From positions 2,468,730-2,532,729 of the forward strand of contig CP030887.1 of the NCBI GenBank assembly GCA_006969905.1: a stretch of DNA of 64,000 nucleotides, read 5' to 3'. Positions within the stretch are counted from its first letter, which is position 1, and each line of letters opens with the position of its first letter. This DNA is from Balneolaceae bacterium (GTDB lineage: Bacteria; Bacteroidota; Rhodothermia; Balneolales; Balneolaceae). Below are positions 1 through 58,192 of the stretch, piece after piece. The notes below the pieces were generated by a model that saw only the letters and a program-made list of their open reading frames with translations, was not told the DNA's origin and did not search any database. A program made the position numbers and the translations under genes.

Positions 1-1040
1 TAATCGTTGGTGCCAAACCCGGTTGTGGTTATAATGGCAACTGCCTGGAAAGCTCCATAGCGTAATGCTTCAAGAATAGCATAGCCGTCAAAAAACCACA
101 GGGAGAATGAGATACCCAATATCCCAATTAAACATACCAGCGAATAAAAGCGGACTTCGCGGTTGGCAAAAAAGGTTTGAGTTTCTCCTCTAAGCAGGCG
201 GAAGTGCATGGCAAAGTTAATTCCTGCCAAAAACATGAAAAGCGTAATAACCCAATCAATATATGCAGATTCAAAACCCTGAATACTGGCATTTTTAGTG
301 GAGAAACCACCTGTAGCCAAAGTTGCCATCGCGTGATTAATAGCATCAAACCAATCCATGGAAGGGTGAACCCAGAGCAGAACAAATTCGATAGCGGTAA
401 AGGCTACGTATACCACCCAAAGCAGCTTTGCGGTTTCCTGTACACGGGGTGTGAGTTTATCAGTGGTAGGGCCGGGCGATTCAGCCTGGAAAAGCTGCAT
501 GCCCCCAATTCCTAACAGGGGTAAAATAGCGATGGATAAAACGATTATTCCCATACCGCCTAACCAGTGTGCAAGCGACCTCCAGAAGAGAAAGCTTTTG
601 GGTATAGATTCGATATCAGGGTTGGTAAACCCATCAGAGGTGGTTCCGCCAAGTATGGTAGAGCCTGTAGTGGTAAGCCCGCTGATAGTTTCAAATACGG
701 CATCGGTGTAGCTGGGCAATATCCCGGAAATCACAAAGGGTAAAGCGCCTACCAGGGAGAGGGTAAGCCAGGTAAGGCTTACTACCAAAAACCCTTCCCT
801 GATACGAATCTCGTTTTTGGGTTTAAAGAAATACCAGAGTATACCCCCGCTTGCAAAAGCAATTCCTGCTGAGATCAAAAACGCATGCCAGGTATCTTCT
901 CCGTAAATGAGATCAATAATAGCAGGGAAGAGAAGGGCAAAACCCATAAAGAATACAAAAGCCCCGAGGATGCCCAGAACCACCAGGAAGTCAATAGTGG
1001 GCCGGTTAAAGGCATCAATTACGCTTTTGGGTTTAGCCAT
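1..1040 (-). CDS. trkH: TrkH-family potassium uptake channel subunit (3' end outside window)
   Basis: Membrane channel subunit of a Trk/Ktr K+ uptake system. The gene reads leftward from an ATG at 1038-1040 and stays open to the window edge, so about 346 N-terminal residues are seen of a family usually near 480. The translation shows many hydrophobic helices and three pore-loop selectivity motifs: TTTGST near residues 123-128, ATGGFST near 240 and TTTGFGTND near 340. The ATG directly abuts the trkA stop codon with no gap, so the two are almost certainly one transcript. TrkA should be the cytoplasmic gating ring for this channel. The C-terminus is missing only because the window ends. Confidence 0.93.
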   Translation of the reverse strand, partial: MAKPKSVIDAFNRPTIDFLVVLGILGAFVFFMGFALLFPAIIDLIYGEDTWHAFLISAGIAFASGGILWYFFKPKNEIRIREGFLVVSLTWLTLSLVGALPFVISGILPSYTDAVFETISGLTTTGSTILGGTTSDGFTNPDIESIPKSFLFWRSLAHWLGGMGIIVLSIAILPLLGIGGMQLFQAESPGPTTDKLTPRVQETAKLLWVVYVAFTAIEFVLLWVHPSMDWFDAINHAMATLATGGFSTKNASIQGFESAYIDWVITLFMFLAGINFAMHFRLLRGETQTFFANREVRFYSLVCLIGILGISFSLWFFDGYAILEALRYGAFQAVAIITTTGFGTND

Positions 1041-2393
1041 CTACTGGAAAAGTTGGGTTACTTTTTCAACTGCTTCCGGCAAGCAGAATACCATGACCCT
1101 GTCTTCGGCTTTAATTTCGGTTAAACCGGTAGCGATTTCCACCGAACCGTTACAAAGTATACCCCCGATAATACACCCGTTTGGAAGCTTTAGGTCTTTG
1201 AGTTTTTTCCCCACTGCTTTTGATTTTGGCGAAGTCAGCAGTTCAATTACTTCTGCTTTTATCCCACGTAATTCGGTAACAGAGATGACTTTGCCTTTAC
1301 GGACATAGCGGTGTATTTCGTTAGAAGCTGCTACTTTTTTATTCACTACTGCGTCCAGGCCGATAGTTTGACTTAGGGGAATGAAATCAGGTTTAGAAAC
1401 TAAGGCCACCGTTTTTTTAACATCGAGATGCTTCGCCATCAGGCAGGAGATGATGTTGGATTCTTCATCATCGGTAACCGCTACAAAGGCATCCATATCA
1501 GTAATACCTTCGGTTGCCAGGAGATCAGGGTCTGTAGGATTTCCATGTAAGATCATAGCTGATCTCAGTTCAATGGCGAGTTCTTCAGCAGAATCATAAT
1601 TCGGCTCAATAAGCTTAACCGACCAATCACGTTTTGGATCTCCACATAAAATCCGGGCTATCATAGAACCAATAGCTGAGCCTCCTGCAATCATAATACG
1701 ATTTAGCTTTGCTTCAACTTTCCCGGTTGTTTTAACGATTTCAGGTATATCCGGGGTCTTTGCGAGGATAAATACCTGGTCAAATTTTTGCAGCCGAACC
1801 GGGCCATGGGGAATTAGTGTTAATCCCCGCCTTGCTATCGCTACCACCCGAAAAGTGATATCCGAATGCTCTTGTGCATATTCAATTAGTGATTTTCCAA
1901 TAAGGGGAGAAGTAGAGTCGAGCCGGATTCCAATCAACTGCATTTCCCCTTCAGCAAGGTTGATTACATCGCTGGCGGCAGACCGTTTAAGCAATTGGGC
2001 AATTTCCTGTGCTGCACTCATTTCAGGATGGATCATTACATCAATGCCCAAATCCATTGGCTTTAAAGGGGAATTGTGGGTAGAGAATTCATCACTTCTC
2101 ACCCTGGCAATAACCATTTTAGCACCCAGTTTTTTGCTGATCATGGATGCGATCATGTTTACTTCATCTATACTGGTTACGGCAATGGTAATGTCTGAGT
2201 CTTCAACTCCGGCCTCGGCTAAATCTTTGGCTGAAGTGGCATTTCCTTCTTTTACTAAAACATCAAGTGTATCAGAAACACGGGTAAGGCATTCTTTCTC
2301 ACGATCCAGAACAATTACATCGTGCTTTTCTTTAGATAGTACGCTGGCAAGATCATAACCAATTTCCCCAGCACCAATAATAATAATCTTCAA
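1041..2393 (-). CDS. trkA: Trk system potassium uptake regulatory protein TrkA
   Basis: Cytoplasmic NAD(H)-binding gating protein for the TrkH channel encoded immediately downstream. At 450 residues it has the usual duplicated layout: two RCK_N Rossmann domains, each followed by RCK_C. The first nucleotide-binding loop GAGEIGYDLA lies at residues 7-16, and a second, GGSAIGSMIA, lies near 237-246. The start ATG follows about 80 bp of intergenic DNA after the PKD-protein stop. First in a trkA-trkH operon. Length and domain order match the family and nothing is unusual. Confidence 0.95.
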   Translation of the reverse strand: MKIIIIGAGEIGYDLASVLSKEKHDVIVLDREKECLTRVSDTLDVLVKEGNATSAKDLAEAGVEDSDITIAVTSIDEVNMIASMISKKLGAKMVIARVRSDEFSTHNSPLKPMDLGIDVMIHPEMSAAQEIAQLLKRSAASDVINLAEGEMQLIGIRLDSTSPLIGKSLIEYAQEHSDITFRVVAIARRGLTLIPHGPVRLQKFDQVFILAKTPDIPEIVKTTGKVEAKLNRIMIAGGSAIGSMIARILCGDPKRDWSVKLIEPNYDSAEELAIELRSAMILHGNPTDPDLLATEGITDMDAFVAVTDDEESNIISCLMAKHLDVKKTVALVSKPDFIPLSQTIGLDAVVNKKVAASNEIHRYVRKGKVISVTELRGIKAEVIELLTSPKSKAVGKKLKDLKLPNGCIIGGILCNGSVEIATGLTEIKAEDRVMVFCLPEAVEKVTQLFQ

Positions 2394-2410: not shown

Positions 2411-2476
2411 GATTAAAAAACAAACTAAGCTACTCCATTTTCAGATGAAAAGAAACATCCTAAGCAGGGTAGCTTA
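2411..2476 (-). terminator. Possible terminator of the histidine kinase-FecR-PKD transcript
   Basis: TAAGCTAC (2426-2433) pairs with GTAGCTTA (2469-2476), with an internal TTTTCA/TGAAAA hairpin between them. On the minus strand the structure is followed by a T-rich stretch (complement of 2411-2424). The outer arm overlaps the stop codon of the PKD gene. The large loop makes this less certain than the other terminators here. Confidence 0.4.
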
Positions 2477-5400
2477 CTCTGTTACAACAATCAGGTCTAC
2501 GGATATCGGTTGTGATTGAGCTACATTTCTGTCTCTTACCTCAACGGTAAACCTGTTTTCTCCTCGGATTAAACGAACGCCTAACTGCATGCCTTTCCCA
2601 ATGATCTCGCCTCGTTGTTTCCAGGTATATTCCACTTCACGCATATTCCTGTTTACGGTTGGGGCTTTAAGGATAAGGCTTGGGTTAGCCGGGTTCCAGT
2701 TCAATCGTTGTGGTTGAATCTGTTCTGTAAATTGCAGAGGCGATACAACTTCAATCTCAAAGGATTGGTTGGTTGCTTCCTGGCCCTGGGGTACCCATGC
2801 TAATTGGAAAGTAGTAACTCCGGGAGAGTATCCAACCCATTGATCCTGGTAAATAGCCTGGTTTTTGAATCTCCAGTTTTGAGGAACTCCCAATTCAGAA
2901 ATAGTAAGTGTACCACCTACAATTATTTTTTCAGGGTAAGTGGGTTTAACAGTTGGCAGCGGAAGGGGGGTAAACTCCACAACTGCTGAATCAATGGAAT
3001 TTGGCAGGCCACGTCCATCATTTTGGATCAGCGTTACTGTGTAACCTTCCATGCTTTCTGCGCGGAAAGCAGGAGTTGGAACGGGGCTCCCATTCACTTT
3101 CCAGCTGGACGACAGCATATCATTATCACGATCCTGCGCTAAACCGCTCTGGAAGTTAACCATTTGATTCAGATAGATCTTTTCAGGGGCTATAATGGAA
3201 GGTGTGGGTGAACTATTAGCGAAGAAGGTTTTTTCCTGTGTTACTTTACTGTTAGATGCCGATGAATTATCAGTAATTTCCAAAGTAACTTTATGCTGCC
3301 CGGGGGCTATGGTTTTTATAAGCTCTGATGCATTTGAGCTTACAAAACCATCATCCAGGTACCATTTATATTCTTTGATGTAACCGTCCGGATCGGAAGA
3401 AGCCATAGCGTCTAATCGTAAATCGGTTCCTGCTGCTACATTTTGAGGCAGGTTCCATGAAATAACCGGAGGTGCATTCACTTTTATCGATTTGGTGAGG
3501 CTTATCGTATTACAGGAAGTGGTGGAATTGGTTTCCAGCTCAAGGGTTACGAAGTATTCACCCGGTTGATTGAAGGTGTATGAATTTGTTAGGCCATTTA
3601 CAACTTGTTGTCCGCTTTCAGTATCAATTAACCAGCGAGCTGTTTTAATACCGCCTTCTGCAACAGATGCAGAACCATCTAAAGTGATAGTTTCTCCAGG
3701 AATGGCATATTCAGGGAGAGTGAAGTCAGCTTCAGGCCCTTCAATTACGCGAACGGTTGCTGTAGTTTGGCTTACATTACTACAACGCCCTGATCCGGAA
3801 CCTTCTACAGTAAGTGACACTGTGTAAATACCTGGCTCGGTAAATACATGGTTAATTCTTGGGCCTGTATTTGTTTTTCCATCACCGGTATCCCAGCTAA
3901 AGGAGGGAAGGGCACCTGAAGGATCGGTACTGGCAGAGCCGTCAAAAGTAATGCTTGAGTTTACGCAAATAGTAGTGTCTACTATATTAAGTTTTGCAAC
4001 CGGAGAACCTTCTATTATAACCGGGATCTTTGTAATTGTTTTTTCCCCAGAGAAACCGTCATCCAAAGTTAGTTTGGCTTCATAAACGCCGGGAGTTTCA
4101 TATACATAAGAAGGGTTGGGTTCATCAGATTGTTCGCCATTTCCAAAATCCCAGTTAACGCTGAACGGGTCTCCATCGGGATCAAAGCTTTGTGCACTAT
4201 TGAATAAAACTGTCTGTCCCGTACAGGAAGCGATCTCAGCATCAACTACTGCCTGTACCGGCCTGTTGACTAGCACACGGATGGATTCTGTATTTTTACT
4301 GTTTGATAGTCCTAACCCATCATCCAGTGTTAAACCGATAAAGTGTACACCGGGCTCCGGGGCAATCCAGGTGAAACTTGCTTCATTTCGTTTACTTCCA
4401 TCGGGTAGTGTCCACTCAAAAGAAACCGGGTTGTTGTCCAGGTCATAGCTTGCAGAAGCGTCCAGTTTTATTGCCATGGAATTTGAGCGAACAACAGGTT
4501 CGGTAACAATATAGGGCTGGTGGTTTACATTGGTTTGATCTTCAATGGTAACCGATGAATTGGAGAGCCCGTCAGAATCTTCTACAGTAAGCCGGAAAGA
4601 TTGAATACCGCTTTCCGGGAATATTCGTTGAATCTGTCGGCCTTGTAGCGTGGTTCCGTCAGCAAACTCCCAAAGATATTCTTTAATGGCTCCATCTGGA
4701 TCATAAGAATCTTCAGCTGTAAAAATTATTTCTGTATCGGGTACCAGGTGATCAGGTGTGGTTTTCCACCGTGGTACAGGAGGGGCATTTACCCGGATCT
4801 GCTTGGTTACAATTCCTTCTGCGAGCTCGTATCCCGAGTTATCTTTTACTCTCAGTGTAACATCATAGGTTCCAACCTGGTCAAAACTCAGGGAAGCATT
4901 AGGGCCGGTTGCAACCGAATTCCCATTAGCAAACCATTCGTAAGAAGTTACTGAACCATCGGCATCTGTACTGAGCGAACCGTCAACTGTAAAGCTTTCC
5001 CCTGGTGCAACCACCTCCTGCATAGCAAAATCAGCAACGGGATATTGATTTATCACTACGATATGTTCGGCAGTACGTGTACTGTTTGAAAGGCCTTCGC
5101 CATCATTTACTGTAAGGGTAACCCTGTACTCTCCGGTGCGTTGGTAAAAATGATCAACATTTGGACCCGATCCTCTGTTTCCATCACCAAAATCCCATGA
5201 GTAAGTGGTTAGTTCTGATTCAGAATCAGTGCTTTGTTCAGCAGAAAACGAAACCTTAGAAACTGAAGTCATATCCAAGGCAGTAATTATGGGGTTTGGA
5301 GCAGAATTAATCCGGATAGTCCTGGACAGCTCCTGTGTTGAATTGGAAACTCCTCGTCCGTCATCCACTACCAGTTTTACTGTATATGTGCCAGGTTCGC

Positions 5401-7192
5401 TAAAACTATATTCAGCAAGCTGGTTTTCAGCGACTAAGCCATCATTAACAAACCAGTTAAAACTTAATGGATCTGAGTTTGAGTCAGTGGAAGACGCTGC
5501 ATTAAGATTGATAATATCACCTGGGGCAGCTTTTTCAGCGATTGTAAAAGAAGGAACAGGGGCAGAGTTAACCTCATAAGTTCTTGAAACAGTATACTCC
5601 GCATTATCAGAAGGCGAGCCATCATTAACGGTCAGATTTACAGTATAAATGCCCGCAGCTGCATGAGAAACGGAAACACTATTTCCCACAGTGGTTTCCT
5701 GGATGCCATCACCACTCCATGTATAACTGAGTGTATCATTATCAGCATCACTTTGATTAATTGCGCTAATGGTAACGGTTTCGTCAGTACCAATTACAGG
5801 TGTTAATCCAATTTCGGAGTAGGGCTGTGTATTAACACGGATACGAATCTGCTTTTGATCAATGCTACAGTTCGGAGTGTTTCCTCCATCTGAAACCCGA
5901 ACGGAAATAGTGTATAAACCAGAAACAGTGCTTGAGAAACTAAAGGTTTTATCAGTACCTCTTAAAGATCCGTTTACAAACCAGGAAAATGAAATTGGCC
6001 TTCCTTCCAAATCATAAGATTTCTCAGCGGATAAAACGAGTACTTCTGAGGGAGAAATGATTTCTTTGGGGGTTTCGAGCCGGGCAAGTGGAGGCGTATT
6101 GACAAACACTTCTTCGCGATAGCTCCAGTACTCAGGAAAATATGTTTTTTGATTGGGTATAAGGATATCGAGAGGGGCGGGCCCTGTTGTTTGAAATGAA
6201 ATATTAGGAGAAGCTCCGTCTGCAAGCTGTTGTGTTCCCAAGATCCAGCGGGCACTACCTAGATCAGTAGAGGAGAACGCATTACCACTAATTTCAAAAG
6301 ACTTTTCGGTACACCTCCGGGAAATAACTTCATCAATAACCAAATCAGGTTTTGTTATTTGATCAGTTACAATGGGTTCAAATAGCCATAAAACGGGAGA
6401 GTTGACCCCATACACCGTTAAGGTATTCAACCTGTCTCTGGAGCCGCTTATGGTTAAGCCCCACTTATTGTCTATTCCAAACTTTGAGGGTAGAATGCCT
6501 GAGTTTCTTATCGGGTAAATTTCCCCGAATGAGTCAATTTTACGAATGCGGGAGTCTTCATTTCCTGCAGCTACCAGATCGGGCTGATCACCTGAACTTA
6601 ATAGATAGGGTTTCAACTGGTAGTTCTTACCAGGGTTTGAAGCATATAAACCAATAGAAAGATCAATGGCGATGATTTGCCATGACCTTCCGGATAGAAC
6701 TTCCCCGTTGGAAGAAACCACTCTGAAATTGAAACTGTTAACATCATCTCCATCATCAACACTAACGCGTACCACGTAGCCATTTGCGCCGGCATTTGCA
6801 TTTAGCTGGGCAAGTGGAACCCAACGGTTTTTAAAACGCTCTTCATCGAGGGTGGTAAGCTCAGTTAGGGAATTGGCTGTTGCACTTTTTACCTGAACGG
6901 TGTTGCCGGATATTGAATATATATCATCAAAACGGAAGGTCTGGAATAAACTCGTTGTATTGGCACCTCCCTGGGTTATTAAATCTACAGCACCCCCCAG
7001 GCCTGCATCAAAAATCTGGAGGCTCCCGTTTGGGGCGCCATTTGTTGGTTTTATCCAAATGTCATATTGGTTACGGGAGTCACCACTCAGGATGGTTGAA
7101 CTTTTTCCTGAGATGGAAAAATATATTTCCTGTGCTGAAGCCGTTTTTCCTAAAACAATAAATAAAACAACAATAAAAAGTCGTTTAATCAT
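2474..7192 (-). CDS. Large secreted protein with about 12 tandem PKD-like domains
   Basis: A 1572-residue exported protein of unknown function. Residues 1-20 form a signal peptide ending in ASAQ. Residues about 20-370 are an unassigned N-terminal region. From about 370 to 1400 come some 12 PKD/Ig-like repeats of 80-90 residues, recognised by an opening NxxP, a central SxDxD and W(x)FGDG-like strand, and a recurrent LSNS before each boundary. The final 170 residues are another beta-rich region. PKD domains mediate binding on extracellular proteins. No catalytic domain, cell-wall anchor or clear type IX sorting domain is visible. It is the last gene after the FecR protein (11-bp gap) and histidine kinase, which suggests a surface partner of that pair. 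Confidence 0.85.
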   Translation of the reverse strand: MIKRLFIVVLFIVLGKTASAQEIYFSISGKSSTILSGDSRNQYDIWIKPTNGAPNGSLQIFDAGLGGAVDLITQGGANTTSLFQTFRFDDIYSISGNTVQVKSATANSLTELTTLDEERFKNRWVPLAQLNANAGANGYVVRVSVDDGDDVNSFNFRVVSSNGEVLSGRSWQIIAIDLSIGLYASNPGKNYQLKPYLLSSGDQPDLVAAGNEDSRIRKIDSFGEIYPIRNSGILPSKFGIDNKWGLTISGSRDRLNTLTVYGVNSPVLWLFEPIVTDQITKPDLVIDEVISRRCTEKSFEISGNAFSSTDLGSARWILGTQQLADGASPNISFQTTGPAPLDILIPNQKTYFPEYWSYREEVFVNTPPLARLETPKEIISPSEVLVLSAEKSYDLEGRPISFSWFVNGSLRGTDKTFSFSSTVSGLYTISVRVSDGGNTPNCSIDQKQIRIRVNTQPYSEIGLTPVIGTDETVTISAINQSDADNDTLSYTWSGDGIQETTVGNSVSVSHAAAGIYTVNLTVNDGSPSDNAEYTVSRTYEVNSAPVPSFTIAEKAAPGDIINLNAASSTDSNSDPLSFNWFVNDGLVAENQLAEYSFSEPGTYTVKLVVDDGRGVSNSTQELSRTIRINSAPNPIITALDMTSVSKVSFSAEQSTDSESELTTYSWDFGDGNRGSGPNVDHFYQRTGEYRVTLTVNDGEGLSNSTRTAEHIVVINQYPVADFAMQEVVAPGESFTVDGSLSTDADGSVTSYEWFANGNSVATGPNASLSFDQVGTYDVTLRVKDNSGYELAEGIVTKQIRVNAPPVPRWKTTPDHLVPDTEIIFTAEDSYDPDGAIKEYLWEFADGTTLQGRQIQRIFPESGIQSFRLTVEDSDGLSNSSVTIEDQTNVNHQPYIVTEPVVRSNSMAIKLDASASYDLDNNPVSFEWTLPDGSKRNEASFTWIAPEPGVHFIGLTLDDGLGLSNSKNTESIRVLVNRPVQAVVDAEIASCTGQTVLFNSAQSFDPDGDPFSVNWDFGNGEQSDEPNPSYVYETPGVYEAKLTLDDGFSGEKTITKIPVIIEGSPVAKLNIVDTTICVNSSITFDGSASTDPSGALPSFSWDTGDGKTNTGPRINHVFTEPGIYTVSLTVEGSGSGRCSNVSQTTATVRVIEGPEADFTLPEYAIPGETITLDGSASVAEGGIKTARWLIDTESGQQVVNGLTNSYTFNQPGEYFVTLELETNSTTSCNTISLTKSIKVNAPPVISWNLPQNVAAGTDLRLDAMASSDPDGYIKEYKWYLDDGFVSSNASELIKTIAPGQHKVTLEITDNSSASNSKVTQEKTFFANSSPTPSIIAPEKIYLNQMVNFQSGLAQDRDNDMLSSSWKVNGSPVPTPAFRAESMEGYTVTLIQNDGRGLPNSIDSAVVEFTPLPLPTVKPTYPEKIIVGGTLTISELGVPQNWRFKNQAIYQDQWVGYSPGVTTFQLAWVPQGQEATNQSFEIEVVSPLQFTEQIQPQRLNWNPANPSLILKAPTVNRNMREVEYTWKQRGEIIGKGMQLGVRLIRGENRFTVEVRDRNVAQSQPISVDLIVVTE

Positions 7193-7203
7193 GCTTCCCT
7201 AGA

Positions 7204-8964
7204 TTACTTTACTGTAAATGATTTAGTTAAATAAGTGACTCCGCTTTGAACATCTTTGAATGTAACAGAAAGTTTGCCTTGTTGCACATTCATTGTTACA
7301 CCCCAACGGCCTTGAGAGTCAGTTTTAATCAGTTTTTTAGTTTGATTGTTTTCAAATACTACTTCCAGGTTTGGGTAAGCCCTTCCCGAAAATGTAATGG
7401 GTTTGTCAGAAGCATTAAACTCTTCCCGCAAAGCACCAAGATTTGTATTTATTTTGAATACTACTTCAGGTGTTAATTTAACAATCCGAAGGGATTTTAT
7501 TGATTCATTCCCGGAATCATCAACCGCCTTAATATCTGTTTTTTCATCAATTCCTGAAAGTGTATAATTGGATTTAAATACCCCCGAGCTTGTAACAGGA
7601 ACATTCAGATCATTTACGCTAACCTTTGCATCCGGTTCGGTGACTCCTTCAATGGTTATTTGATCAGAAGTAGTAAACAATACTGAGTTATTTAGTTTGT
7701 CTCCAAAAATTGGCGGGGCCTGTGTATCCACATTTCTGATAACACGGGTAACCGGAGAGTAGGGGCCTCTTAAGCCAAGTTCATCAACTGCCAATACCTT
7801 TACGTAAGTAGTGCCTAAAGGTATGTCCTGTATGTTGACCCGGGTTCGATTAGTTTCTACTTCAGTAATATCCTGTTCAAAATTGTATGATGAACTATAC
7901 TGAATTATATAGTTCACGGCCCTTTCAACAGGTTTAAAATTGTATATAAAATCTTCGTTATAAATAATGGAGTCTTTCTTTGTAGTAGCTAGTTCAGGGG
8001 CAGGCAGCAGCTTGATTGGAGGAAGAGGAGCGCTATTACCCCTGATGATTGTACCTTCATTTTTATTGATAGTAACAGTGATGTCATTAACACTCACATT
8101 TGCTACGCCATCATAGTTCGTTAGCTTCACATTATCACCGGCTTCATTTTCAGCATAGAAGTTTTGAGTTTTAAGCTCAGTGGTTGACGCACCTGCATTC
8201 AGGATATAATTACTCTTTTCCCTGCCGGCTGCAGAAAGTTTTGAAAGCAGACCGCCTTCCACCAGGGTAATTTCTGTATCGGCACTCTCGTCAAGGCGGT
8301 CAATACGGGATTTACGGATTACAGCTGTTGTTACAGGATTAACAGTAATATTACTGCCATCTGTGAATGAGAGCGTAGCGTAGCTTTCCTCAGCAGTTTT
8401 AATCCCATCCGATTCCTTGAAAAGATCCCCTTCAAAAGCATCTTGCCAGTTTGCCAACAGGCCAATTCTTTTGTCAACATTTCCGCTCTTCTTACTGAGT
8501 TGAGCCTGAACATTTACCAGCCGATTAGTGGTTAACGTTGACTCAAGATTATCTACCATAGATTTTAAGGAAGTGCCAATAGATGAAGCAGTTTCAATAT
8601 CTCCATTCTTAACGGCTTCCAGGTAATCAGAAAAAGCCTTATTGGTGTCTTTAAGCTCATTTTTTGCAAAGATGGTAGCTCCCTCGCTAATCAGTTTTTT
8701 TACCCTGTCTTGCTGCTCTTCATAAGAGAGGGATATGGAAGAGAAGTTTTGCAGTTGGGTAACATCAGCCTTAGTTAAGATAAATGTGTTGTTCCCAACA
8801 TCGTGATTGGCTAGGCTTACCAATATCGGCCAGTTTAAACTGTTACCACTATAGCGTTGTGCCATTTCCTGAAGATCACTTGCAGAAAATGACAAATTAC
8901 CCTGGGCAGCCAGATTTGTAACCACAATTGTCAGGAAAAGAAAGAGGGCAAAAGTCTTTTTCAT
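7204..8964 (-). CDS. Exported FecR-domain protein with Fn3/Ig-like C-terminal domains
   Basis: 586 residues with an N-terminal signal peptide ending in LAAQ. The first 180 residues are helical and charged. A FecR-like beta domain follows at about 190-320, with the typical pattern of a TDGS turn, a VEGG segment and later asparagine-rich strands. A fibronectin-like domain lies near 335-420 and two Ig-like domains follow to the end. FecR domains in Gram-negative anti-sigma regulators sense periplasmic signals, but here there is no transmembrane segment or sigma factor nearby, so a scaffold or sensor role in the periplasm is inferred. The start overlaps the kinase stop by 4 nt (ATGA), showing translational coupling. 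Confidence 0.8.
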   Translation of the reverse strand: MKKTFALFLFLTIVVTNLAAQGNLSFSASDLQEMAQRYSGNSLNWPILVSLANHDVGNNTFILTKADVTQLQNFSSISLSYEEQQDRVKKLISEGATIFAKNELKDTNKAFSDYLEAVKNGDIETASSIGTSLKSMVDNLESTLTTNRLVNVQAQLSKKSGNVDKRIGLLANWQDAFEGDLFKESDGIKTAEESYATLSFTDGSNITVNPVTTAVIRKSRIDRLDESADTEITLVEGGLLSKLSAAGREKSNYILNAGASTTELKTQNFYAENEAGDNVKLTNYDGVANVSVNDITVTINKNEGTIIRGNSAPLPPIKLLPAPELATTKKDSIIYNEDFIYNFKPVERAVNYIIQYSSSYNFEQDITEVETNRTRVNIQDIPLGTTYVKVLAVDELGLRGPYSPVTRVIRNVDTQAPPIFGDKLNNSVLFTTSDQITIEGVTEPDAKVSVNDLNVPVTSSGVFKSNYTLSGIDEKTDIKAVDDSGNESIKSLRIVKLTPEVVFKINTNLGALREEFNASDKPITFSGRAYPNLEVVFENNQTKKLIKTDSQGRWGVTMNVQQGKLSVTFKDVQSGVTYLTKSFTVK

Positions 8965-11081
8965 TCGTTTGGCTGAGTTTTCGGGAATGTTAAGGTAAAC
9001 CTGCTCCCAATTTCCGGTGTAGATTCCAATTCGATATTTCCGTGATGAATAGCCATGATTTCTTTTACATAGGCTAAACCCAGCCCTGTACCTTTTTCTT
9101 TTGCTGCTTTTACGTTTGATTTAACACGGAAGAATTTATCAAATACTTTCTTTTGATCTTCAATACTTATTCCAAAACCAAAATCTGTAATCTGGACTTT
9201 CAAATGCTCTTCTTCTTCAAAGAGATATATTTCTATAGTACGATTAGGCTCTCCGTATTTGGCAGCGTTACTAATCAGGTTCTGAACAGCATCAAATACT
9301 AAATCCTTACTTGCTTTAATTATAAAGTCAGAACCTTCAACCCGGATATTTGCCTTAAGATTTTTACTGCTTAACAGGGCGTTAGAGAGTATTTTTACAT
9401 CATTGATGATTTGGAGCACATCTACATTGGTAAAATCAACGCTTGTTTTTCCGGCTTCGAGTTTTTGAACTTCAAGGAAACGGTTTACCAATTCATTCAT
9501 CCGTTCTCCCGACATGTATACTTCTTTCAACAACACATTTTCCTCATCCTTACTCATGGATTGATTATCCATTATAAGTTTAGTGATGCCTACAACACCC
9601 GTGATCGGATTCTTAAGTTCATGCACAATTACATTAATCATATCGTTGCGCTTCATATCCAGCAAACGGTCTTCAGTTTTGTCATGGATAATTACATAAG
9701 CGCCTTGTTGTTGTTCGTTTTCATCCAGTATGGACAGGTACTGGTAGTCGTAATAATAGGATGTTTCCTTATCACCATAAACAGTAAGCTCAGCCTGGTC
9801 TACCCGGACCGTGAAAGGATCGGGATAGTGCAGGGATTGAGTAGGTTTACTAAGAATAACATTTCTGTGTTTTAGAACTTCTTCAAGTGTGGTTTCTTTA
9901 GGATTTAATCGCAAACCTGCCAGCAAATCTATAAACTGGTTGTTTAGAAAACTGAATTTTTTATCAGACCCTATAACCCCTATCATGTCTTCAGAATAGG
10001 TTACCATATATCGGTTTTTCCATTCTTCAAGGATAATCTTTTCTACGTTAATTTTTTTATACCTCTTAAGGGTTAAGCGAATATTTTCCAAGGTTTCGTG
10101 CATCTGGTTAAATTCTGGCAGCTCAACATTACGGATGGAGTGCTCAAAATTAAGATCAGACAGAAAAGCTACATCTTCCAGCAGTGCCTGAACAGGTTTG
10201 TTTACCCGGGTACTTACATACCAGCTAAAAATGAACATAAAGAAAAGGATGGAGCCGGCAGCAATAAATGAAAATCTTATCAGCTGGTTCACAGGGTTTA
10301 AGATGAAACTATCTTCTACTGCAATGAGATGCCAAAACGGTATGCTTTGAAACCGGGACGAAACCACAAACCAGTTCCGGTTATCGAGAGCAATTGTTTT
10401 TTCACGTGAGAAACTTGCATCACCTATCAATTCAGCAGGGAAATCAAACTGTGCTCCCGGAATAATATTTGTTCCATTGGCATCTACAATGTTAGCTACA
10501 TAAATATCATCTCCCCCTAATGGAATGTTGATAAGATTATCACTCAGGGTCTGTGAGTTAAAGAACATATCCAGGTTATAAATATCACTGCCTATCTGGA
10601 TGGCACGTCTGCTCAGGAAAAAATCTACATCCTGTTCAGGGTCAGATACCCAGCTGACACTAATCAGGTTGCTTAAGCGGGAAGTAACCCAAGTTGGATT
10701 TATATTCGAATAGTCTACCTGGTTATAGATAGAACGATTTATGTTTACTTCCTGCCCCGTGCTGATATCAGTAATAATAATACGCATTAAACCGGGAGTA
10801 TAATTGATCGCTTTTGATACCAGGTTTTGTGTTTCTCCGGGGTTCAATATTAAATCTTCAGCGAGTTGATTGGCAGAATTTATCCAGTTTCTAAGGGTAT
10901 TGTCAGTTTGCCTGAGAGTATACTCCTGGAGTTGAGATACAATAGTAGTTCGCTCACGAATAATAGTCTCCCGGTATTGGGGACGTATAAACACCCAAAT
11001 AAGAGCTATTGCAGTAAGAATTAACGCAGAAGAGATAAAAAATATCCTATCCCTGAGCGTGAGCTTTTTGAACATTGTCAC
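8961..11081 (-). CDS. Membrane sensor histidine kinase with extracytoplasmic sensor domain
   Basis: A 706-residue two-component sensor kinase. One membrane segment lies at about 13-32 and another near 276-298, with a roughly 240-residue extracytoplasmic part between them that looks like a double-Cache fold. A PAS-like domain follows near 370-470. The kinase core has the H box HELKNP near 489, N box NLISNAAKYG near 600, G1 DFGFGIS and G2 GTGLGLAYV. No receiver domain is attached and no response regulator gene is adjacent, so its partner is elsewhere. It heads the three-gene unit with the FecR and PKD proteins. A second ATG two codons in is equally usable. Confidence 0.93.
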   Translation of the reverse strand: MTMFKKLTLRDRIFFISSALILTAIALIWVFIRPQYRETIIRERTTIVSQLQEYTLRQTDNTLRNWINSANQLAEDLILNPGETQNLVSKAINYTPGLMRIIITDISTGQEVNINRSIYNQVDYSNINPTWVTSRLSNLISVSWVSDPEQDVDFFLSRRAIQIGSDIYNLDMFFNSQTLSDNLINIPLGGDDIYVANIVDANGTNIIPGAQFDFPAELIGDASFSREKTIALDNRNWFVVSSRFQSIPFWHLIAVEDSFILNPVNQLIRFSFIAAGSILFFMFIFSWYVSTRVNKPVQALLEDVAFLSDLNFEHSIRNVELPEFNQMHETLENIRLTLKRYKKINVEKIILEEWKNRYMVTYSEDMIGVIGSDKKFSFLNNQFIDLLAGLRLNPKETTLEEVLKHRNVILSKPTQSLHYPDPFTVRVDQAELTVYGDKETSYYYDYQYLSILDENEQQQGAYVIIHDKTEDRLLDMKRNDMINVIVHELKNPITGVVGITKLIMDNQSMSKDEENVLLKEVYMSGERMNELVNRFLEVQKLEAGKTSVDFTNVDVLQIINDVKILSNALLSSKNLKANIRVEGSDFIIKASKDLVFDAVQNLISNAAKYGEPNRTIEIYLFEEEEHLKVQITDFGFGISIEDQKKVFDKFFRVKSNVKAAKEKGTGLGLAYVKEIMAIHHGNIELESTPEIGSRFTLTFPKTQPNE

Positions 11082-11232: not shown

Positions 11233-11505
11233 ATGTTAACGAATATGATTATTGGAAAGGACTTTAATACCAAGGCGAAATTATTGCTTTCAAAAATTGC
11301 TGAATCGGGATATGAGGAAGGAGGTAAGGCTGTAAGTGTAAAACCTATTTGTAAAGAGCTTAAGCTTGATAAAACAGAAGCAAAAAACCTACTGGAGTAC
11401 CTGGAATCTAAATCCTGTTTAGTTCTGCACAGCTATGGTGGGCCTTATCTCTATGATGAAGTATACCTCACAAAAAAAGGTTTACACAAAAGCCAAAAAA
11501 AATAG
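11233..11505 (+). CDS. Small winged-helix-like protein, unknown function
   Basis: 90 residues, mostly helical with a charged C-terminus. The pattern (KAKLLLSKIAES, then CKELKLDKTEAKNLLEYLESKSCLV, then a basic beta-like end) looks like a small winged-helix fold such as those that bind DNA, but I cannot assign a family. It stands alone on the plus strand between the divergent kinase operon and the convergent metalloprotease, and a strong terminator begins at the last base of its stop codon, which supports it being a real gene. Confidence 0.6.
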   Translation: MLTNMIIGKDFNTKAKLLLSKIAESGYEEGGKAVSVKPICKELKLDKTEAKNLLEYLESKSCLVLHSYGGPYLYDEVYLTKKGLHKSQKK

Positions 11506-15644: not shown

Positions 15645-15690
15645 CAATATTAATGAATCTGCAAAAACTATTCTGTGACTTTAGTCACCA
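15645..15690 (-). promoter_or_regulatory. Candidate Crp/Fnr operator and promoter for the DUF2892 gene
   Basis: A perfect palindrome, GTGAC TTTA GTCAC (15675-15688), covers the stop codon of the Crp/Fnr gene. On the minus strand a TAATATTG box (15645-15652), one mismatch from the Bacteroidota -7 consensus TAnnTTTG, is centred exactly 33 bp downstream of the palindrome centre. That puts the operator near -42 from a predicted start, the classical activator position. The same spacing occurs at 53825-53868. Confidence 0.6.
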
Positions 15691-16310
15691 CTGCCAATTA
15701 TTTTTATACCTTGTTCTGTTTGCTCAATAGAACCTTCAGATTCGAGTTTTTTGAGAAGCCTGCTAACCACTTCCCTGGCTGTTCCAAGTTCATTTGCTAT
15801 TTCACGATGGGATAAACTTAAGATATCTGAATAGGTAAGGCTGGATTTCTCCTTTAGATATTTTAAAAGCCGTACATCAAGCTTATCAAAAAGAATATGA
15901 TTGATGGTATCCAGAAGTTCGCTATATCTCAGGTTGTACTGCTCATAAAAAAGTGTGTTAAGTCCGGGATATTGTTTTATCCAATCCGGTATTTTTTCAA
16001 CAGGTAAAAGCAATACTTCAGTTTCCTCTTCGGTAATTGCAAAGATTTTACTGGGTTCGTCCTTTAAACTTGCAGCAAAAGACATTATGCAGCTTTCGTT
16101 GGGTTTTATATAGTACAAAAGCAATTCCTTTTCTTCGTACCTGGTAAAGACTTTAATAAGCCCTTTCAATACAAGTGGAATAGCACCTACATATTGTCCC
16201 TTCCGGAGAATCTCAAAGTTTTTGGGAATTGTTTTTACCGTTGAGTTCAATTCAATGGCTGAAACAAGATCGGGATTAAAACCGGAAAGTATATCGAAGC
16301 CTTTATCCAT
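15681..16310 (-). CDS. Crp/Fnr-family transcriptional regulator (first of two paralogs)
   Basis: A 209-residue regulator with an N-terminal cyclic-nucleotide-binding-like beta barrel and a C-terminal winged helix; the recognition region ELGTAREVVSRLLKKLE is near 172-188. A single cysteine sits in a conserved LLYYIKPNESCIMSF block, shared with the paralog at 53865-54485, which has LLYYIHPGETCVMSF. There is no N-terminal Fnr iron-sulfur cysteine cluster. The gene is 14 bp after the permease gene and directly upstream of the DUF2892 gene. Likely responds to a redox or sulfur-related signal; this is inferred from neighbours only. Confidence 0.9.
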   Translation of the reverse strand: MDKGFDILSGFNPDLVSAIELNSTVKTIPKNFEILRKGQYVGAIPLVLKGLIKVFTRYEEKELLLYYIKPNESCIMSFAASLKDEPSKIFAITEEETEVLLLPVEKIPDWIKQYPGLNTLFYEQYNLRYSELLDTINHILFDKLDVRLLKYLKEKSSLTYSDILSLSHREIANELGTAREVVSRLLKKLESEGSIEQTEQGIKIIGSGD

Positions 16311-54724: not shown

Positions 54725-57700
54725 ATGTCTACTAAGACTCAGGAAACTTCTACAGAACCTACATCTAAAAAGTACCCGTTTAGTTTAACTGAACCTCATA
54801 AACCAACTAATAAAGTTCGTTTTGTAACGGCAGCCAGTTTGTTTGACGGGCATGATGCAAGCATTAACATTATGCGGCGAATTTTGCAAAGCAGTGGCGT
54901 GGAGGTCATTCATTTAGGGCACAATCGCTCGGTTCATGAAATTGTAAACTGTGCTATCCAGGAAGATGTACAGGGAATAGCTATCAGTTCGTACCAGGGT
55001 GGCCACGTTGAATATTTTAAATACATGATTGAACTGCTGAACGAGCAGGGAGCAGGCCACATTAAGGTATTTGGTGGTGGTGGTGGTGTGATTGTACAGG
55101 ACGAAATTGATGATTTACACCAGGCAGGAATATCCAGGATCTTTTCTGTAAATGATGGAAGTGAAATGGGCTTACAGGGAATGATCAATTATATGATCCA
55201 TGAATGTGATTATGACCCGGTAGCCAAAACAGGTGTAGATATTGATGAGGTATTTAAGAAAGAGCCAAAAGCTCTTGCGCGGGCAATTACGGCACTGGAG
55301 AATGGAAATGGGGAGTTGCTCAGCTTTGAAGATGGAAAGCTTCTAAAGAAAAACGGGAAGCAATTAGCAGCTAAATCTGGTAAAGTAATCCCTGTTTTAG
55401 GAATTACTGGAACCGGTGGGGCAGGGAAAAGCTCATTGACTGATGAGATTGTTCTGAGATTCCTTACAGAGTTCGAAAATATCCATATCGGTATCATTTC
55501 AGTAGACCCCTCCAAAATTAAGACAGGAGGAGCGCTTTTAGGTGATCGTATACGGATGAACAGTATAGACACGGAACGCGTGTATATGAGAAGTTTAGCA
55601 ACAAGAGCATCTAACAGAAGTACAAGCGCAGCGTTAACCGGTGTTATTGAGCTGTATAAGCAAGCGGGATTTGACCTGATTATTGTGGAAACGAGTGGGA
55701 TCGGCCAAAGCGGAACTGAAATTGTGGATATTTCAGATATCCCGGTTTATGTAATGACCAGTGAATACGGAGCAGCAACCCAGCTTGAAAAGATCAACAT
55801 GCTGGATTTGGCTGAAATCGTGGTTTTGAACAAGTTTGAAAAGAAAGGTTCTTTAGATGCTTACCGGGATATCCGTAAGCAAATGATCCGAAACAGGGGG
55901 GAATGGCACGCTAAACCGGAAGACATGCCGGTGTATCCGACCATTGCTGCACAATTCAATGACAAAGGGGTGAATAACCTGTTTGCTGCTATCGTTGAGA
56001 AGATCAATAAGCGATTTAGTTTTGATTGGAAGCCGGAGATATTCACGGATGCCAGCCCTGCGGAAGATATCCAGGCACAAGCCATCATTCCCGGCAAGCG
56101 TGTCCGTTACCTGTCCGAGATTTCCGAAACGATCCGGAATTACCATGACTGGGCAAAAGAGCAATCAGAAATTGCTTCACGATTAGATGAAGTACGCGGA
56201 ACATTGAATCAGCTAAGCAATTGGAAGCCAGATAATAAAGATGTATTAGTTAATGATCTTTCTAAGATGGAAGAGCATTGGATTTCTGAACTGGATACTA
56301 CACCAAAGAAAGTCCTTGATGGTTGGGATGAGCTTTATGAACGATATAAACAAGATACTTTTGACGTTCAGATTCGCGACAAGGTCATTAAGAACGATTT
56401 GTACAGGGAATCATTGAGTGGACTCAAAATCCCAAGGGTAGCTTTACCCGGTACCAAACACGCCGGTGAACGTGTTAAATTTGCATTGAAAGAGAATCTG
56501 CCTGGTTATTTTCCATATACTGCGGGTGTATTTCCATTTAAGCGGGAGGGAGAAGACCCAACCCGGATGTTTGCAGGTGAAGGAACGCCGGAGCGCACGA
56601 ACAAGCGATTCCATTTTGTTAGTGAAGGATTAGATGCAGCCCGGCTTTCCACAGCTTTTGATTCGGTAACGCTATATGGTGAAGATCCCGGTTACCGTCC
56701 GGATATCTACGGAAAAATTGGCAATTCCGGTGTGAGCATTTGTACGCTGGATGATATGAAAAAACTTTACTCAGGTTTTGAATTGACACAGCCAACTACT
56801 TCTGTATCAATGACTATCAACGGTCCGGCACCTATGATTCTGGCCATGTTTATGAACACAGCTATTGACCAGGAAGTGGAGCGGTACCTGAAAGCAGAAG
56901 GTAGGTGGGACAAGGCAATTAAAGACATTAAAGCGAAATATGATAAGCTTGGATTACCAATCCCGAAATATGCGAACGCGATTCCTGCAGGTAATAATGA
57001 ATTTGGATTGGGCTTACTTGGGGTTTCAGGGGATGAGGTAATTGATATTGAAACCTATAACAAAATTAAGGCGCAAACACTTTCAGCAGTACGGGGAACT
57101 GTACAGGCAGATATTTTGAAAGAAGACCAGGCACAGAATACCTGTATTTTCTCTACAGAGTTTGCTTTAAAGATGATGGGAGATATTCAGGAGTATTTCA
57201 CACAGCATAAGGTGCGTAATTACTACTCGGTTTCTATTTCAGGATATCATATCGCAGAAGCAGGGGCAAATCCTGTTACCCAGGCGGCACTTACCTTGGC
57301 GAACGGGTTTACCTATGTGGAATACTATCTCGCCCGTGGTTTGAATATTGATGATTTCGCGCACAACCTTTCATTCTTCTTTAGTAACGGACTTGATCCC
57401 GAATATGCGGTGATCGGGCGTGTGGCACGACGTATTTGGGCGGTAGCCATGAAGAATAAATACGGAGCGAATGATCGCTCGCAAAAACTGAAGTACCATA
57501 TCCAGACCAGTGGACGTTCGCTGCATGCTCAGGAAATCCAGTTCAATGATATCCGTACCACATTACAGGCATTACTGGCAGTATATGATAATTGTAACTC
57601 ACTGCACACCAATGCTTATGATGAGGCAATTACCACCCCAACTGAAGAATCAGTTCGCCGTGCATTAGCGATACAAATGATTATTAATAAGGAAATGGGA

Positions 57701-58192
57701 ACGGCTAAAAACGAGAATATCAACCAGGGTTCATATTTCATTTCTGAAATGACCGATTTGGTGGAAGAAGCCATTCTTACCGAGTTCGATCGAATCACAG
57801 AACGTGGCGGAGTATTAGGGGCTATGGAAAGCATGTATCAACGAGGTAAGATCCAGGATGAGAGTTTGTATTACGAAACCAAGAAGCATACCGGTGAACT
57901 CCCGATTATTGGGGTGAATACCTTCCTGAGTGAGGGAGAAGACGAAGAACAAAAGCCTGTTGAACTGATCCGATCTACCGAAGAAGAGAAGAAGCAACAG
58001 ATCGATAACCTGGAAGCATTCTGGAAACGCAATGAAAGCAGGAGTGAGATTGCTATCGAAAGCTTGAAGACCGCAGCCCGAAACAACGGCAATCTGTTTA
58101 ATGAGCTAATGGAAACCGTTAAAGTGGCTTCTTTAGGACAAATTTCAAGGGCTCTTTACGAAGTAGGCGGCCAGTATAGACGGAATATGTAA
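54725..58192 (+). CDS. icmF: Fused isobutyryl-CoA mutase IcmF (B12 domain, G-protein chaperone, mutase)
   Basis: 1155-residue adenosylcobalamin enzyme interconverting isobutyryl-CoA and butyryl-CoA (or related acyl-CoAs). N-terminal B12-binding domain with DGHDAS at 41-46, whose His43 is the cobalt ligand. Then a MeaB-like G domain with P-loop GTGGAGKSS near 229-237 and NKFEKKG near 371-377. The mutase TIM barrel runs from about 560 to the end, including [13 protein letters not shown] near 594-606. This order defines IcmF rather than methylmalonyl-CoA mutase. Two LacI-type operators precede it; used in branched-chain amino acid or fatty acid breakdown. Confidence 0.95.

Follow-up and report, generated by a model that had tools for sequence, protein, structure and literature searches.

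Gene organization of the locus

We analyzed 64,000 nucleotides of the genome of a Balneolaceae bacterium (GenBank assembly GCA_006969905.1, contig CP030887.1, positions 2,468,730 to 2,532,729; hereafter, the window). Three consecutive genes on the minus strand encode a sensor histidine kinase, a secreted protein with a FecR domain, and a giant PKD-repeat protein (Table 1), and these genes very probably form one conserved, coupled unit (hereafter, the cassette) that goes beyond chance adjacency. Tight spacing of the genes, as described in the original prediction for this DNA, is found at both junctions: the FecR start codon (ATG, 8964–8962) shares the tetranucleotide ATGA with the kinase stop codon, and the FecR stop codon (TAA, 7206–7204) is followed after 11 bp by the ATG of the PKD gene at 7192. 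The prediction had further claimed that neither a response regulator nor a sigma factor or TonB receptor lies nearby, and this holds in what was searched. None of the 44 Response_reg matches in the organism's own genome (E-value up to 1e-5) falls within the window, and a Pfam scan of 16 window proteins, which did not extend to the remaining open reading frames (ORFs), showed no sigma factor or TonB receptor. With no adjoining regulator, neither of these two gene types among the scanned neighbors, and no anti-sigma domain, the unit is not a standard two-component or FecIR system, as had been proposed.

Table 1 Features of the kinase-FecR-PKD cassette and the evidence used to define them.
Feature	Coordinates	Strand	Evidence
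Sensor histidine kinase, 706 aa from GTG	8961–11081	−	ORF, Pfam, hydropathy, aligned orthologues, AlphaFold2
Periplasmic sensor region of the kinase between transmembrane helices, fast evolving	10278–10991	−	Hydropathy, p-distance
Kinase linker with family signature around NVEKIILEEWKN	9927–10214	−	Specific probe for the kinase family
ATGA stop/start overlap, kinase to FecR	8961–8964	−	Sequence
Secreted protein with FecR domain, 586 aa	7204–8964	−	ORF, Pfam, hydropathy, AlphaFold2, Foldseek
Beta-alpha-alpha-beta unit (residues 24–63), LysM-like	8776–8895	−	Homology to relatives, predicted secondary structure
FecR domain (residues 188–286)	8107–8403	−	Pfam PF04773
11-bp gap, FecR to PKD gene	7193–7203	−	Sequence
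Giant PKD-repeat protein, 1572 aa	2474–7192	−	ORF, Pfam, NCBIfam, hydropathy
Conserved N-terminal region of the PKD protein (residues 22–372)	6077–7129	−	Specific probe
Tandem PKD/Ig-like array	2477–6076	−	11 PKD_4 stretches, Pfam

Conservation and joint loss of the three genes

A FecR query matched 29 of 148 genomes of the phylum. A scan of genome contigs with the single window FecR sequence found no relative. Profile searches of 394 phylum genomes returned matches in 51 (FecR), 46 (PKD N-terminal region), and 60 genomes (kinase linker). Each profile had a strong group, delimited by cut-offs that were placed at score gaps after those gaps were seen: 41 genomes for the kinase linker (E-value up to 4e-21; next match 1e-12), 41 for FecR (up to 6e-178; next 2e-167, a diverged f15 sequence that had been included in the profile, followed by matches at 4e-103 and weaker), and 42 for the PKD N-terminal region (up to 8e-79; next 2e-11). 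These groups coincide in 41 of the 394 genomes; no genome has the kinase only or FecR only, and a single one (G093) has PKD only. The gene order, on whose conservation the original prediction depended, is kept in other Balneolaceae and beyond: in all 41 strong-group loci (26 plus 14 fetched loci and the window), kinase, FecR, and PKD genes are adjacent on one strand and in one order. The kinase-linker probe found 28 named contigs, many from the same genomes as the 41-genome set; 26 show this order and two end inside the cassette. Their titles name Balneola, Gracilimonas, Balneolaceae, Rhodothermia bacterium, Chloroherpetonaceae, Thermochlorobacteriaceae, Chlorobiales, Ignavibacteriae, and unplaced Bacteroidetes.

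Flanking gene order (metalloprotease, TrkA, and the next gene) is specific to the window's family (f1), where nearly all loci share it. Outside f1, we found single look-alikes near the cassette in two members of the same order, namely a metalloprotease relative near locus L097 (on the other strand) and a gene resembling window positions 15681–16310 after L096. Because the flanks differ outside f1 while the trio stays together, we regard the three genes as the unit.

The three genes are also lost jointly. At least 20 genomes lack FecR; the 20 listed are all in f1, and the same 20 lack the PKD region and the kinase linker. A separate search of 19 f1 genomes recovered PKD in 6/6 genomes with FecR and in 0/13 without it. 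Eight TrkA regions from cassette-less genomes were compared. The clean loss in G313 leaves the metalloprotease and TrkA genes 421 bp apart with all three cassette genes gone, and G278 keeps the gene for a small helix-turn-helix (HTH) protein and has three other genes in the cassette's place; in the remaining six regions, the listed genes upstream of TrkA match no query protein.

Some copies are irregular: the kinase is split into two ORFs in L095 (= L144), and the PKD ORFs of L100, L103, L104, L152, L154, and L159 run off contig ends. In L155, one 1292-codon frame that matches FecR at the kinase position looked like a kinase-FecR fusion; we rejected it as an out-of-frame reading upstream of FecR, the kinase lying in another frame. 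Distance correlations between the three proteins (Spearman 0.65–0.85) were not used as evidence because they mostly reflect shared ancestry.

Exchange of the output enzyme

Ten genomes had weaker FecR matches, and in seven of them a kinase or cyclase gene is adjacent (L057/L058, L059, L103–L106, and L108). In families f15 and f33, the unit begins either with the gene for a kinase of 633–680 aa (L057, L059, L103, L104, and L105) or with that for a class III nucleotide cyclase of 574–579 aa, in which HAMP and, weakly, dCache were matched (L058 and L105). L058 has the order cyclase-FecR-PKD. In L105 (3146–19901), a cyclase-FecR-PKD unit is directly followed by a kinase-FecR-PKD unit, both behind a response regulator-SpoIIE gene. 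Plasmids of the alphaproteobacteria Skermanella rosea and S. mucosa carry the order FecR-PKD-cyclase. The PKD protein of S. rosea (1620 aa) aligns end to end with that of L105 (1618 aa) at 44% identity over 1608 alignment columns, and it shares 29% identity with the window protein over 1446. The cyclases of S. rosea and L105 share 48% identity over 98% of the query, and the window FecR protein shares 23% identity with its S. rosea counterpart over 83% of its length (E-value 1e-25). FecR and PKD both stay while the enzyme changes, and we therefore take them to be the input parts. These comparisons argue that the conserved core is an extracytoplasmic FecR/PKD pair, to which interchangeable transmembrane output enzymes would be joined.

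Partial units and solitary genes were also found. The kinase and FecR genes occur without an adjoining PKD gene in L057, L108, and L106 (the last in reversed order and with a hybrid kinase carrying two receivers and an Hpt domain), and the kinase and PKD genes occur without FecR in L206. The FecR proteins of L106, L108, and L207 are OmpA-FecR fusions; a kinase gene is adjacent in L106 and L108, and none was matched in L207. Solitary PKD copies of 1578–1595 aa lie in L202–L205 (genomes G001, G011, G006, and G016) and in L201 (G093), with no FecR or kinase gene directly beside them; in L201, a kinase gene that looks unrelated lies farther along on the opposite strand.

Features of the encoded proteins

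The GTG listed as the kinase start is followed two codons downstream by an ATG (at 11075), which is the likelier start codon and would give a protein of 704 aa. The predicted architecture comprises a first transmembrane segment (residues 11–34), a periplasmic Cache-like sensor of about 230 residues, a second transmembrane segment (residues 266–291), a linker, a PAS-like region seen in the structural model, and HisKA (E-value 6.1e-12) and HATPase_c (7.2e-23) domains, with the membrane segments placed by hydropathy. Residues H487, N601, N605, G635, G637, G664, G666, and G668 are invariant in 22 aligned orthologues, so that the protein has the HisKA phospho-acceptor histidine and the HATPase_c N and G boxes expected of a histidine kinase. 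The AlphaFold2 model has a mean predicted local distance difference test (pLDDT) score of 81.2 and a predicted template modeling score of 0.43. The sensor region is the fastest-evolving part of the kinase (mean pairwise p-distance 0.70 vs. 0.52 for the core). Neither the window kinase nor the 26 members of comparison set A2 had a CHASE2 match in Pfam; dCache_1 was matched in one of the 26, and below the cut-off in two proteins of L105, L106, and L200. The structure search barely probed the sensor fold because kinase cores filled its matches.

The FecR protein consists of a signal-like N-terminus, a LysM-like unit, a helical hairpin, the FecR domain, and three Ig-like domains, and it aligns collinearly with the L058 version. 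PF04773 was matched at 6.4e-6 (27 bits; cut-off 24) and in all 17 aligned members. The AlphaFold2 model (mean pLDDT 80.5) shows the unit at residues 24–63, the hairpin at 65–158, a low-confidence linker, a beta-rich FecR domain at 187–308, and further beta domains. Its top Foldseek matches are adhesin and Ig-chain fragments; the FecR-type anti-sigma structures 4m0n and 4m0h were also matched at about 3 Å over 135–138 columns, for which the aligned range was not printed and the assignment to the FecR part is our reading. LysM was matched in one of the 17 aligned members (0.0029). Among diverged relatives, the N-terminus is a recognizable LysM domain in L105 (E-value 6.6e-7), and an OmpA-family domain precedes FecR in L106, L108, and L207; because relatives have LysM or OmpA-family domains at this position, the N-terminal unit of the window protein is probably a degenerate LysM. 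The anti-sigma type that the FecR label suggests is contradicted by the relatives' LysM and OmpA domains and by the protein itself, whose sole hydrophobic segment is N-terminal, with no second transmembrane segment in the hydropathy profile and no anti-sigma domain in Pfam. Judged from its sequence, the window protein is not of the anti-sigma type: the FecR domain sits in a secreted-type protein, as in LysM-FecR periplasmic proteins of the COG4254 type. A lipobox-like motif was present in one of 50 ORFs at the FecR position.

The PKD protein begins with a hydrophobic, signal-like segment, which is followed by a conserved N-terminal region of about 350 residues and by the PKD array. It had been described as a surface protein, which we could not confirm: a lipobox was found in 0/49 ORFs at the PKD position, and the window protein had no type IX secretion system model among its six NCBIfam matches (E-value up to 0.01) and no match to a C-terminal sorting domain. 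Given the missing lipobox and type IX secretion system match, the periplasm would be the simplest location. Across 39 orthologues (omitting L095 and L100, with starts taken as the first ATG, GTG, or TTG), the median length is 1572 aa (interquartile range 1568–1589.5, range 1427–1725). When 86-aa cuts of the window protein, which do not follow true repeat borders, were compared with orthologues including the most distant ones, 98 of 126 best matches fell no more than 60 aa from where they were expected. The other 28 comprise 14/14 cuts in L096 (13 at a steady shift of 105–149), 11/14 in L058, and three single cases. For a repeat protein, such constancy of chain length and register hints that length matters.

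A proposed signal module and its alternatives

We consider it likely that the trio encodes one envelope-sensing signal module in which the secreted pair modulates the co-encoded kinase. The FecR protein, as an adaptor, and the long PKD chain of steady length would act outside the inner membrane, the former probably held at the wall through its LysM-like unit, and the latter in the periplasm or reaching beyond it. The pair may bind a ligand or report the state of the wall or envelope, and one or both proteins would touch the Cache-like region of the kinase and thereby set its activity. The signal would run inward, with the kinase then phosphorylating a response regulator encoded elsewhere. The FecR/PKD pair also occurs together with a class III nucleotide cyclase, implying that the input is conserved and the output is not. 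The original prediction had a surface PKD protein and a periplasmic FecR protein feeding the kinase sensor; an extracytoplasmic pair feeding a transmembrane transducer is still the best reading, and it is the surface location of PKD that found no support.

Relatives suggest two types of output, that is, a response regulator fused to a SpoIIE phosphatase, encoded upstream of the first cassette gene in L104, L105, and L206, or a CheY-like regulator, encoded after FecR in L057. No response regulator lies directly beside the cassettes of L058, L103, and L059. In the window's genome, the five SpoIIE and 44 receiver matches are, by position, never combined in one gene, and 16 of 30 fetched receiver loci have no kinase ORF within 1.5 kb, making them orphan candidates. 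Orphan kinases are common, and the absence of an adjacent response regulator therefore does not exclude kinase function.

Several observations weigh against the proposed module. Pfam found neither LysM in the window FecR protein nor Cache or dCache_1 in the kinase, LysM is not among the best 50 Foldseek matches listed for the FecR model, and window-type sensors resemble dCache-bearing relatives only weakly in hhalign (probability 12%, E-value 0.0025). Three of the ten genomes with weaker FecR matches have no adjacent transducer gene: FecR adjoins a carboxyltransferase gene in L107, where the contig ends soon after, and L207 and L208 have weak FecR matches and no triad. The receiver and SpoIIE positions in the window's genome identified no partner regulator, although many orphan receivers remain. 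The solitary PKD gene is a second copy in all four f10 genomes with the cassette (L202–L205) and the only copy in G093, so the protein has some use without the kinase and FecR. Moreover, co-inheritance in a short operon indicates functional linkage and is silent on which protein senses.

The solitary PKD copies and the adhesin and Ig-chain fragments at the top of the Foldseek matches are what one would expect if the kinase senses alone and FecR and PKD are envelope or adhesion structures under its control, placed downstream for co-expression. This explanation is unlikely, given that a cyclase replaces the output gene while FecR and PKD stay, that none of the 41 strong-group genomes holds FecR without the kinase, and that FecR-type proteins adjoin kinases where the PKD gene is absent (L057, L106, and L108). 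A rather improbable elaboration of the proposed module is an envelope strain gauge, in which the wall-held FecR protein and the PKD chain would form a force-bearing tether from peptidoglycan to the Cache-like domain, and strain would set kinase or cyclase output. It is raised because force strengthens the PKD domains of polycystin-1, according to PMC2862302, and because most sampled orthologues keep the length and register of the chain, up to the alphaproteobacterial copy. The Pfam FecR match and the anti-sigma structures found by Foldseek would also fit a FecR/sigma-type system, with the FecR protein as anti-sigma factor or transmembrane transducer for an unlinked sigma factor and the kinase as an accidental neighbor. 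We give this very little credence since the hydrophobic segment is N-terminal only, an anti-sigma domain is missing, the FecR domain of relatives follows LysM or OmpA, and the neighbor belongs to the same kinase family in 41/41 genomes. Chance adjacency or mere synteny of a conserved chromosomal region, suggested by the flanks shared among window-family loci, is hardly credible because it is already contradicted by the gene-order counts, the trio alone persists outside the family (bar the look-alikes near L096 and L097), and losses take all three genes.

Neighboring genes and transcription

The upstream side of the kinase gene is occupied by a small HTH-like ORF (90 aa, 11233–11505, plus strand), which is present in many but not all window-family relatives, and by the metalloprotease gene. 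A GC-rich hairpin with a T-run (11522–11504) lies between the metalloprotease and kinase genes, making it likely that the cassette is transcribed separately from the former. This is only inferred, because counts in the window scan match those in shuffled sequences for both terminator-like (8 vs. 8.0) and promoter-like sites (20 vs. 20.5). Downstream of the PKD gene, TrkA and TrkH-like genes (1–2393, minus strand) have the same orientation as the cassette and recur at this position in nearly all loci of the window's family that carry the cassette, and read-through from the cassette into them is possible. TrkA was identified by Pfam, whereas the following gene is called TrkH-like from sequence and position alone. 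Elsewhere in the window (54725–58192, plus strand), a 1155-aa fusion combines B12-binding, MeaB GTPase, and mutase domains, which we take to be of the IcmF type.

Comparison with known systems and significance

Among described systems, the BiofilmReg operon of Burkholderia contaminans and other Burkholderiales comes closest. According to PMC5192318, it encodes a response regulator, a LysM-FecR protein, a CHASE2 kinase, and DUF4136; a two-gene LysM-FecR/kinase form is given for Pseudomonas aeruginosa, and biofilm formation was abolished when the response-regulator gene of the operon carried an insertion. Both systems combine a secreted FecR-domain protein (LysM-FecR in BiofilmReg, with a probable degenerate LysM unit in the window) and a transmembrane sensor histidine kinase in one operon with short gaps or overlaps, and the pairing of a LysM-FecR protein and a kinase is therefore not new. 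BiofilmReg has a CHASE2 sensor, a leading response regulator, and DUF4136 in last place, whereas the window unit has a Cache-like sensor, no regulator, and the giant PKD gene third; in cassette relatives a cyclase replaces the kinase, and "PKD" occurs 0 times in PMC5192318. The literature searched, from which subscription journals were mostly absent, yielded no paper on a FecR-PKD-kinase or FecR-PKD-cyclase unit.

The full kinase model matched best to the WalK-YycH integrative model 9a5d (Z 24.3, 569 aligned residues, root-mean-square deviation 18), a match driven by the kinase core, which NCBIfam places near WalK, PnpS, and PhoR. The window kinase is not WalK because the NCBIfam matches listed (25 of 82) are all far below curated cut-offs. 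WalK has extracytoplasmic partner proteins, of other kinds than FecR and PKD. FecI/FecR systems have the FecR domain in common with the window unit, which differs from them in two ways: the 16 scanned proteins include no sigma factor and no TonB receptor, and the FecR protein has neither a second transmembrane segment nor an anti-sigma domain.

The cassette links three uncharacterized protein families across Balneolaceae, contigs named Chlorobiales and Ignavibacteriae, and one alphaproteobacterial genus. It represents a natural experiment in which a common input is joined to different output enzymes, in one case with both at a single locus, and it bears on how FecR-domain proteins may signal without a sigma factor and what purpose a giant PKD chain may serve whose length varies so little.

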